A stretch of 57,229 nucleotides of DNA, from NCBI GenBank assembly GCA_022450595.1, contig JAKUPT010000013.1, positions 1-57,229 on the forward strand, in the 5' to 3' direction. The translations under genes and the position numbers were made by a program. This document shows, one piece after another, positions 18,273-40,851 of the stretch (position 1 is the stretch's first letter; every line of letters begins with the position of its first letter). Origin of the DNA: Bdellovibrionales bacterium. Lineage in GTDB: Bacteria; Bdellovibrionota; Bdellovibrionia; Bdellovibrionales; UBA1609. Below the pieces are notes generated by a model. It was not told where the DNA came from and ran no database searches. It was given only the letters and a program-made list of their open reading frames with translations.

Positions 18273-18291
18273 TTTTAAAAACTTAAAATAT

Positions 18292-18327
18292 AAAAAGCGG
18301 CGATTACAATGGTAATCGCCGCTTTTT
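18292..18327. terminator. Perfect 16-bp stem terminator
   Basis: The arms AAAAAGCGGCGATTAC (18292-18307) and GTAATCGCCGCTTTTT (18312-18327) pair without mismatch around the loop AATG. A/T runs on both sides let it work for the lipoprotein gene and for the convergent secreted-protein gene. Confidence 0.92.
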
Positions 18328-18366
18328 ATATTTGAATTTATACAAAAACATTAATAGATATGAATT

Positions 18367-38327: not shown

Positions 38328-38436
38328 CTTCACTGCATCGCAAAAAACTGACTAAAGTCCTAAAAAACAACGAATTGCAACTTGCAGTCAGTCTTTGATG
38401 TAAAATAAGATAAGGTTTGTGACTTTAGGAGGAAAC

Positions 38437-39018
38437 ATGAAAATCGCACCCATAGATATAGCCCATAAAACTTTTAGCCGTAAGATGATGGGCTTTGACG
38501 CTGATGAGGTGATGGACTTTTTAAGAAGCCTTGCTGATGAAATGGAAACTCTTTACAAAGAACGCAATCAGTTAAAAGAATCCATTCGTGACAAAGAAAT
38601 GTCTTTAAATGAATTTAAAGAAAGAGATGAACTTCTAAAGCACACAATCACCACAGCAACTAAAATGTCTGAAAAAATTCGCACTGATGCTGAACGCGAA
38701 GCCAAGCTCATCGTTAACGATGCAGAACACAAAGCTGAAATGATTGTTTGTGACGCTAGAGATTCTTTAAAAAAGATTTACCAAGAAGTTTCCGACCTAA
38801 AACGTGTGCGCATGCAGTTTGAAAACAATATGAAAGCACTGGTTCAATCTCACTTAACCATGCTTGAGCAGGCACGCCACGTAATGCCTAACCCAGATGT
38901 TAAATCAGATGTGGTGGAGCTTTCTAAGCAGGAGTCTGAAGAAGAAGCGGGACGCATTTTAGACAACGTGACTAAGGCGGTTCATCAAGCCTCATCGCAA
39001 AATAACTTAGACGTATAA
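38437..39018 (+). CDS. divIVA: DivIVA-domain cell-division/polarity protein
   Basis: The 193-residue protein has the DivIVA N-terminal motif (IAPIDIAHKTFSRKMMGFDA, then DEVMDFLRSL), which binds curved membrane and poles, followed by a long coiled coil (about 35-150) and an acidic tail. DivIVA is rare in Gram-negative bacteria; in Bdellovibrio it influences cell shape of progeny (family knowledge). The ATG at 38437 has AGGAGG close upstream and is preferred to a GTG at 38419. The spaced gap after proC (109 bases) suggests its own promoter; TTGCAG and TAAGAT with 18-base spacing are weak candidates there. Confidence 0.9.
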   Translation: MKIAPIDIAHKTFSRKMMGFDADEVMDFLRSLADEMETLYKERNQLKESIRDKEMSLNEFKERDELLKHTITTATKMSEKIRTDAEREAKLIVNDAEHKAEMIVCDARDSLKKIYQEVSDLKRVRMQFENNMKALVQSHLTMLEQARHVMPNPDVKSDVVELSKQESEEEAGRILDNVTKAVHQASSQNNLDV

Positions 39019-39046: not shown

Positions 39047-39079
39047 AAACCCTAGCTTTTTTTGAGCTGGGGTTTTTTT
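39047..39079 (+). terminator. Intrinsic terminator of divIVA
   Basis: AAACCCTAGCT (39047-39057) pairs with AGCTGGGGTTT (39065-39075), with one G-U pair, followed by a T run. It stands 28 bases after the divIVA stop. Confidence 0.85.
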
Positions 39080-39101
39080 GTTTAGGGAGTGCTCGAATTG
39101 A

Positions 39102-39276
39102 GTGAAATCACTGAAGTGTTTTTCTGTTTTAAGGCCGCAAAGCTTCCGGCGTGAGCGGGTGCGGAGCGTCTTCGTATTGCATTAACCCCTCTGGGGTTAA
39201 CGCAACACGGATACGCACCACTCGACACGAGGGCGCTTTGCGGCCTTAAAACAGAAAAACACTTCAGTGATTTCAC
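39102..39276. repeat. Giant palindromic element, copy A
   Basis: A perfect 42-bp inverted repeat (39102-39143 and 39235-39276; arms begin GTGAAATCACTGAAGTG) encloses a 91-nt core. The core holds its own hairpin, TTAACCCC-TCT-GGGGTTAA (39182-39200), extended by pairing of TTGC and GCAA, and GC-rich flanks (GAGCGGGTGCGGAGCG and CGGATACGCACCACTC). The core recurs as its reverse complement in copy B (39571-39739), but the 42-bp arms do not. Single-stranded DNA or RNA would fold into an about 175-nt hairpin. No coding potential is credible here. Confidence 0.92.
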
Positions 39277-39570
39277 GCTTGGGGGGATTCGAAGACTGTC
39301 TATTTCATTGTTGTGTAGATAGGTGGGAAATATTTTGTTTACTTCTTTTTTTGTTTGATTCGATTTTTGATTGTCATAATAGCTCCTATAAAAGTGATTA
39401 AAGGAGCCATCGGGTGTCGAAATAAAAAATTATTCCCAGTCCTATAGTTTAACTAGGGTTGAATATAATTACTAAAAGTAGAGGTACAGTTGTAATAAAA
39501 AGACGAGTTAATCTATACAAACAATTTTTTTATAATTCATATTAAATGACCTCTAAACAATTAATAGCTA
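39277..39570. other. AT-rich spacer between the two giant palindromes
   Basis: This 294-base stretch has no credible gene. It holds a small inverted repeat (GCTCCT at about 39382 with AGGAGC at about 39402). On the minus strand, an ATG at 39377 preceded by AGGAG opens a 12-codon, Lys-rich frame ending at 39339, which is too short to call a gene. Confidence 0.6.
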
Positions 39571-39739
39571 GCTTTTTTGATTCAGTTTATTTGGAAATTT
39601 AAGTCTCAACGACACTCGTGTCGAGCGGTGCGTATCCGTGTTGCGTTAAGCTGAAAGCTTAATGCAATACGAAGACGCTCCGCACCCGCTCACGCTTGAG
39701 TTGAGACTTAAATTTCCAAATAAACTGGATCAAAAAAGC
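39571..39739. repeat. Giant palindromic element, copy B
   Basis: Arms at 39571-39610 and 39700-39739 (start GCTTTTTTGAT) match in 39 of 40 positions as an inverted repeat. The 89-nt core is the reverse complement of the copy A core over two blocks of about 34 and 37 nt with one difference. The apical hairpin differs in sequence but not in pairing: TTAAGCT-GAA-AGCTTAA (39646-39662) instead of the CCCC/GGGG clamp of copy A. The element ends 17 bases before the stop of the next minus-strand gene. Confidence 0.92.
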
Positions 39740-39756
39740 GGGTTCAATACACAAGA

Positions 39757-40752
39757 CTACTCTTGCTCACCTTCAATTTCTTGTTCGACTTTGTCAAAAA
39801 TATCAGAGGCAGTGTCTTCTTGTTCACTAGGGTCCACGGGTTTAAATCTGCGTTTTCGTTTTTTATCACGGCTAATCTTTTTAGGCTTTGCAATTTGTAG
39901 CCACTCCCAACGAAGCAAAATGGTGTCGTTTTTAGAGGCGTTTTTACCGTTAAGGTCTGCTTGATAGCCCAGGCTAAAAATGGAATTGGATGAGGCGTAA
40001 AAGCCGAGCCAGCCTCCGGCGAAAAGTTTTTGAGGGTTTACACCGTGATGGGCGAAGCTGCCGCCATTAACTCGGGTGTTGTAGTTGTTTCTAAAGCTGA
40101 CATTGTCGGTGTAGCCATCATCAAAAACACTCATATATCCACCCACATGGGCTGAGAGCTTGAAACTTCTTGGAAAAATTTTAGTGATCTGAGCAAAGTA
40201 GTGAAATCTGTGAGAAAGCTCTTCAGCGCGGTACTCGTAAAAGCCTTTAACCAGAGGAATCCAGCTTCCCCATTGAGTTTGAAGGTTAGCCCCCAGATAG
40301 CCCTTGTAAACGCCGTCACTTAAAAACACTTCATCGGTAGAGGCTTCAAAGCTTGTGATGGGCACAACAAGGCGTGCTTCTGGAATAAGGACTAATTTTT
40401 GAAATTGAATCCAGAACTGAGCTCCCATTGTTATATCGCTAAAGCTTGTATGAGTTCTTTTAAAGTTAAGATTATCGCTTGTGGCGTTGACCAAGTCTGT
40501 GGAAGCAAATACGCTCCATCTGCGAGTCAGATTCCAGTCCACACGTGGGCTAAAGCGAATTTTTTGGTAGTAGTAGCCGCTGGGAAGAGACTCAAAATCA
40601 CCGCCCTCAGGACTGAAGTTTTTAGTGGTCTTGTAAAAACTAAAATCTGAGGTCAAATGAGCCTGTCCAGGCTTAAAAACTCTGATGGCGGAGTGAGCCA
40701 TTGATGAGATAAAAGATAATAAAAATACAGTGGTAAGAATCTGTTTAAACAT
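39757..40752 (-). CDS. Exported beta-barrel outer-membrane protein, unknown family
   Basis: The 331-residue product has a signal peptide (MFKQILTTVFLLSFISSMAHS). It is followed by alternating strands such as SGYYYQKIRFSPRVDWNL and TDITM-like turns, LIPEARLVVPI and FHYFAQITKIFPRS, typical of an outer-membrane barrel. The C-terminal about 45 residues are different: Lys/Arg-rich (KKISRDKKRKRRFKP), then acidic, so the tail probably lies in the periplasm. The ATG at 40752 is chosen because it starts the signal peptide; an upstream in-frame ATG (40800) adds 16 residues. It is divergent from the MFS gene. Confidence 0.65.
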   Translation of the reverse strand: MFKQILTTVFLLSFISSMAHSAIRVFKPGQAHLTSDFSFYKTTKNFSPEGGDFESLPSGYYYQKIRFSPRVDWNLTRRWSVFASTDLVNATSDNLNFKRTHTSFSDITMGAQFWIQFQKLVLIPEARLVVPITSFEASTDEVFLSDGVYKGYLGANLQTQWGSWIPLVKGFYEYRAEELSHRFHYFAQITKIFPRSFKLSAHVGGYMSVFDDGYTDNVSFRNNYNTRVNGGSFAHHGVNPQKLFAGGWLGFYASSNSIFSLGYQADLNGKNASKNDTILLRWEWLQIAKPKKISRDKKRKRRFKPVDPSEQEDTASDIFDKVEQEIEGEQE

Positions 40753-40851
40753 CTCTTTTATCTTGTGGTATGACTTGGGTTTAGTCAAAGCTTGAGCCAT
40801 TTAAACGGGGCCTATGGCATATTGATAACGCAACTTGCAAAGTGGGTGTTG

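Follow-up and report, generated by a model that had tools for sequence, protein, structure and literature searches.

Two long palindromes, A and B, lie side by side in a 57,229-nucleotide stretch of Bdellovibrionales DNA (hereafter the window) and are probably copies of a non-autonomous mobile hairpin, one flank having been copied in inverted form across its core at insertion or very early after. More tentatively, they may stand for a class of bacterial mobile hairpins, comprising several core families, that insert beyond gene ends and build their terminal inverted repeats from the flank, so that the repeats would be those of the target. Terminal inverted repeats are usually held to be the ends that define a mobile element and are inherited with it, whereas here they are seemingly made from the target, and this points to an insertion route with fold-back DNA synthesis, which would be unusual for mobile DNA. 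If true, the process would also provide a natural supply of new long hairpins at the ends of genes, and it offers many independent recorded events for testing how template switching builds RNA or DNA hairpins in bacteria.

The two palindromes and their common core

A and B lie between two genes that converge on them, with stop codons at 39018 and 39757 (Table 1); the first gene probably encodes a DivIVA-like protein, judging by inspection. A scan of the entire window recovered them as the only inverted repeats with arms of at least 30 nt, and the perfect 42-bp inverted repeat of A far exceeds chance; no target-site direct repeat is visible by inspection at the edges of either palindrome. Their cores share, in opposite orientation, a first block of 37/37 nt (39149-39185 in A, 39659-39695 in B) and a second block of 34/35 nt (39197-39231 in A, 39615-39649 in B), core A being antisense to the upstream gene and core B to the convergent gene. 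An earlier note made from the letters of the window had described two giant palindromes with near-perfect arms around a core common to both in opposite orientation, and this description stands. The apical compensatory change to which it drew attention proves to be one instance of a broader pattern: an alignment of 18 cores of about 90 nt folds as one hairpin of 26 pairs, 14 of which display double compensatory changes, with several G.U pairs confined to one strand. Elsewhere in the window, a perfect palindrome of 22 bp around a 4-nt loop lies at 18286-18333 (AAATATAAAAAGCGGCGATTAC).

Table 1. Positions of the features of the window and of further palindromes in related genomes (locus:positions)
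Feature	Location	Strand	Basis or remark
Palindrome A, left arm	39102-39143		42/42 complementary to 39235-39276
Core A	39144-39234	minus (modelled, G.U-bearing strand)	core alignment and covariance model
Palindrome A, right arm	39235-39276		inverted-repeat comparison
Palindrome B, left arm	39571-39610		39/40 complementary to 39700-39739
Core B	39611-39699	plus (modelled strand)	best covariance match of the genome, E 9.8e-21, 39612-39700
Palindrome B, right arm	39700-39739		inverted-repeat comparison
Gene upstream of palindrome A	38419-39018	+	ORF list; stop 83 nt before A
Stem and T-tract, intrinsic-terminator-like, of upstream gene	39048-39081	+	outside palindrome A; read from sequence
Convergent gene	39757-40800	-	ORF list; stop 17 nt from palindrome B
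Second core family, G055	L239:7891-8006, L245:11790-11903, L246:4547-4667		
Second core family, G014	L256, L257, L259, L260		
Second core family, G063	L078:1696-1817, L084:671-801		
Second core family, G025	L033:5156-5342		
Further recurrent cores, G055	L232:6918-7068, L240:15544-15703, L245:19089-19241, L247:19257-19410, L247:19710-19856, L249:2742-2875		
Further recurrent cores, G014	L091:2604-2776, L099:340-567		

In Bdellovibrio-like bacteria, the core forms a dispersed element whose structure is conserved. The genome of the window (G000) contains it at 11 places; the loci are unlinked, and some copies form pairs of opposite orientation. This dispersal through the genome rejects a single local duplication, one of the outcomes that the earlier note had named as fatal to its proposal. 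A composite element, in which two copies would enclose a gene, was also discarded, since the intervening genes are ordinary and different from pair to pair. Covariance searches detected the core in 11 of 47 family genomes and, for the order, in 13 of the 141 that were sampled, with up to about 31 copies per genome, while no genome outside the order matched in a 291-genome sample of the phylum, where the same clade alone was recovered. A search with a relaxed pattern returned relatives in Bdellovibrionaceae MAGs only; the core pattern had no match in viral contigs, and viral carriage was rejected on this ground. No curated family among the Rfam covariance models matches the core, nor did the Rfam search find a ribozyme, the miRNA matches that it returned being to perfect hairpins and under the gathering score; assignment to a known RNA family was thus set aside.

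Most copies are located at gene 3' ends. Palindrome edges cluster around stop codons, as judged from mechanical, ORF-based context calls in which some small ORFs are probably spurious; 34 copies lie between convergent genes, 43 between tandem genes and 9 between divergent genes, and 15 of 16 coding overlaps fall on gene 3' ends. Of 62 cases that could be decided, 42 have the modelled strand antisense to the closest gene end and 20 do not (p = 0.007), a bias that comes mainly from G063 and G000. A fixed target motif at the palindrome edge was rejected, as the sequence just outside displays only a modest rise in G+C, and no rejoining microhomology is apparent by inspection.

Arms and their relation to the flanks

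In a set of 106 copies, arm length has a median of 47 nt and pairing is 94.8% Watson-Crick, with about 1% G.U; 36 are perfect. Among the 11 copies of G000, the two arms of a copy are complementary at 0.92-1.00 out to 36 nt, and arm identity between copies over that span is 0.28-0.40; the inner 20 nt or so of the arm lie above the shuffled level between copies (0.37 vs 0.27), and the outer part falls to that level even where the cores are very similar. The claim that the arms differ from copy to copy is therefore confirmed in the genome of the window, where the alternative of the same arms in all copies does not apply, and arms are likewise unrelated between copies in G025, G005 and G004. On the other hand, the two congeneric genomes G063 and G062 have arms that are plainly related from copy to copy along their full length: the copies align end to end at 82-88% including arms, with compensated differences, and there the arms have been inherited together with the core. 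An inner arm stretch travels with the core in G014, G025 and G037. The mobile unit thus differs by genome, being mainly the core in G000, the core with the inner arm in G014, G025 and G037, and the whole palindrome in G063. Every core seen with intact flanks also had arms, though some copies of G005 retain them only in degraded form.

Several loci of relatives reveal where an arm comes from. In the spacer between mfd and an outer-membrane gene, one arm consists of the last codons of that gene, AGFKLEM and stop in G017 (L051) and AGLRLEF and stop in G022 (L045), and its inverted copy stands on the mfd side. This C-terminus is conserved in genomes devoid of the element, including G033, which belongs to the genus of G022 and whose corresponding spacer is empty and a few bases long. 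Furthermore, coverage of profile alignments places native C-terminal codons inside arms at MsbA-like, PaaE-like, M23-peptidase and siderophore-interacting genes. In G055, 4 of 7 palindromes have their edge precisely at the base of an intrinsic terminator stem and include its T-tract in the arm (control 5%); in G005, 2 of 7 have an edge at such a stem base (control 7%). In a nested case of G025, read across overlapping contig ends, a core occupies the apical loop of an older core, the right half of which is the exact complement of its left half and not the sequence retained in intact cores.

In relatives, at the several independent loci whose ancestral state can be read, one arm is DNA native to the flank and the other repeats it in inverted form. 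By analogy with these loci, we infer that the arms of A and B may also derive from their flank; among the sampled genomes, no empty allele was found for either, and empty sites were found for two copies of G063, too diverged to tell the ancestral arm. The suggestion of the earlier note that an arm derives from the local flank is consequently upheld at such loci, but it fails as a universal rule, given the related arms of G063 and G062 and the inner arm shared among copies of G014, G025 and G037. As a separate observation, duplicated siderophore-interacting genes of G014 (L091, L104) are each followed by an element, one with matched arms carrying private variants on both sides and the other with unmatched arms, the latter being possibly a recombinant.

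A proposed scheme of insertion and its rivals

In the proposed scheme, the mobile part would be the structured core of about 90 nt, joined in some genomes by a short inner arm piece, and it would land mostly just downstream of genes, often past the transcription terminator. At insertion, or very early after, an inverted copy of one flank would be made across the core, and a near-perfect palindrome with locus-specific arms would result. The folded core would let a DNA 3' end within or next to it prime on its own strand and copy some 30-60 nt of the adjoining single strand; copying would stop where the strand folds, as at a terminator stem, or runs out, the chromosome then being rejoined, and later template switching between arms would repair mismatches and flip the core. 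We infer this copying, be it hairpin-primed or by template switching, its coupling to insertion, and the origin of A and B by it. A halt of copying where a terminator folds is suggestive of a single-stranded template, for which a 3' end copying its own strand is the simplest account. No mobilizing enzyme was identified: RVT_1 is absent from G000 and G063, and the Y1 transposase from G014. This counts against the scheme, as do the whole arms related between copies in G063 and G062, the mixed orientation of the core, the excess of G.U over A.C among arm mismatches, the lack of visible microhomology and the failure to find an empty allele for A or B. The presence of reverse transcriptase or Y1 transposase does not track that of the core, and mobility driven by a reverse transcriptase or a RAYT was rejected by this co-occurrence analysis.

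A first rival, which we consider unlikely, is an ordinary inverted-repeat element whose arms travel with it; the core would be selected, and the unconstrained arms would diverge fast in concert while template-switch homogenization keeps them paired. The G063 and G062 copies, alike over their whole length with compensated differences, are what it expects, and template switching is documented to homogenize arms and to invert spacers (PMC8604942, PMC8794818). The orientation of the core, opposite in G017 and G022 at the orthologous mfd spacer, also fits spacer inversion. More generally, core orientation relative to the native side is consistent in G055 (4/4) and mixed elsewhere (G017 vs G022; G014), so that a consistent relation was rejected outside G055; mixed orientation needs core flipping or more than one route, and template-switch spacer inversion would also account for it. 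However, outer arms at the shuffled level beside very similar cores in G000, together with native coding ends and terminator T-tracts inside arms, run counter to inherited arms. Homogenization would moreover erase what is observed in G037, where a conserved non-complementary inner segment is common to about five copies and copy-specific, perfectly inverted extensions lie outside it. Arms have thus not simply been homogenized throughout, and this favours extension coupled to insertion over ongoing homogenization.

Stepwise selection for a long RNA duplex, in which ordinary compensatory mutation keeps the arms of a structured RNA gene paired, appears improbable. It would agree with the covariation of the core, with the preferentially antisense position of the elements (42 vs 20) and with wobble pairs on one strand in core and arms; indeed, the excess of G.U over A.C mismatches in arms (73 vs 29) points to some selection or strand-biased mutation also acting there. 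However, arms so largely Watson-Crick, with so few G.U pairs, are nevertheless unrelated between copies, multi-base tracts appear to change jointly, as in the nested core of G025, and codons of neighbouring genes lie within arms.

Insertion of the core at the apex of pre-existing long palindromes is also improbable. The two G025 cases of a core in the apical loop of another are in its favour, but almost all of the long palindromes sampled contain a core that recurs or else are repeats with a short loop, 344 kb of a control congener that lacks the element include none with arms of at least 30 nt, and the empty spacer of G033 spans only a few bases. The two nested elements of G025 are located at contig ends C72/C61 and C35/C12 (L024, L014, L018, L020), where assemblies break. 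Although these breaks could hint at an assembly or amplification artefact, the same core in many independent MAGs and families, within long contigs and with compensatory changes, leaves that explanation next to no credit.

Known systems and other palindromes

Bacterial MITEs and palindromic repeats such as ERIC or YPAL are non-autonomous, intergenic, hairpin-forming and multi-copy, as is the window element. The terminal inverted repeats of MITEs are common to their copies, whereas the terminal arms are unrelated in G000; this MITE trait is likewise absent in G025, G005 and G004 and present in G063 and G062. Group IIC introns prefer terminators, and the window element resembles them in its insertion near terminator hairpins. 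They use a structured DNA target (PMC10190682), but the window element differs in that Rfam finds no ribozyme and neither G000 nor G063 has a reverse transcriptase. REP/REPIN repeats, mobilized by RAYT (TnpA-REP) transposases (PMC3116915, PMC8266576), are also short, dispersed, non-coding extragenic hairpins at gene ends, often in opposite-orientation pairs. Their hairpin ends are conserved and their middle is variable, while the window element has the reverse arrangement, a conserved centre and variable, locus-specific arms of about 40-60 bp. Furthermore, RAYT-type or Y1 genes are lacking in G014 (99% complete, 24 copies) and numerous in genomes without the element such as G034 and G010. Template-switch (quasipalindrome) mutations are known (PMC8604942, PMC8794818, PMC7202029), and template switching creates and repairs hairpins and inverts spacers (PMC8794818, PMC8604942). 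Reverse-complement copying of adjoining DNA, arm homogenization and spacer inversion are thus common ground, and the trait of one ancestral arm with its inverted copy is encountered at the outer-membrane-gene locus with an empty congener. Such mutations are sporadic and local, whereas here copying accompanies the dispersal of one conserved core over many loci.

The pattern extends beyond this core. In a census of sampled stretches rather than whole genomes, 21 long palindromes were counted for G055 and 6 for G014, over 400 kb in each genome, and they include several more cores that recur, each with different arms; the control congener yielded three palindromes, all short, and 194 kb of other G000 contigs yielded no long ones. 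Several recurrent cores with differing arms suggest a general process in Bdellovibrio-like bacteria and not the property of one core. Across genera, a second family of cores (GCTCAGACA...CCGAACTCG) reappears with near-perfect arms that differ per copy, and more recurrent cores lie within long perfect palindromes with unrelated arms in G055 and G014 (Table 1). Finally, contig C96 of the genome of the window carries, near a core copy, a palindrome with arms of at least 34 bp and a different core (L009:1261-1396).
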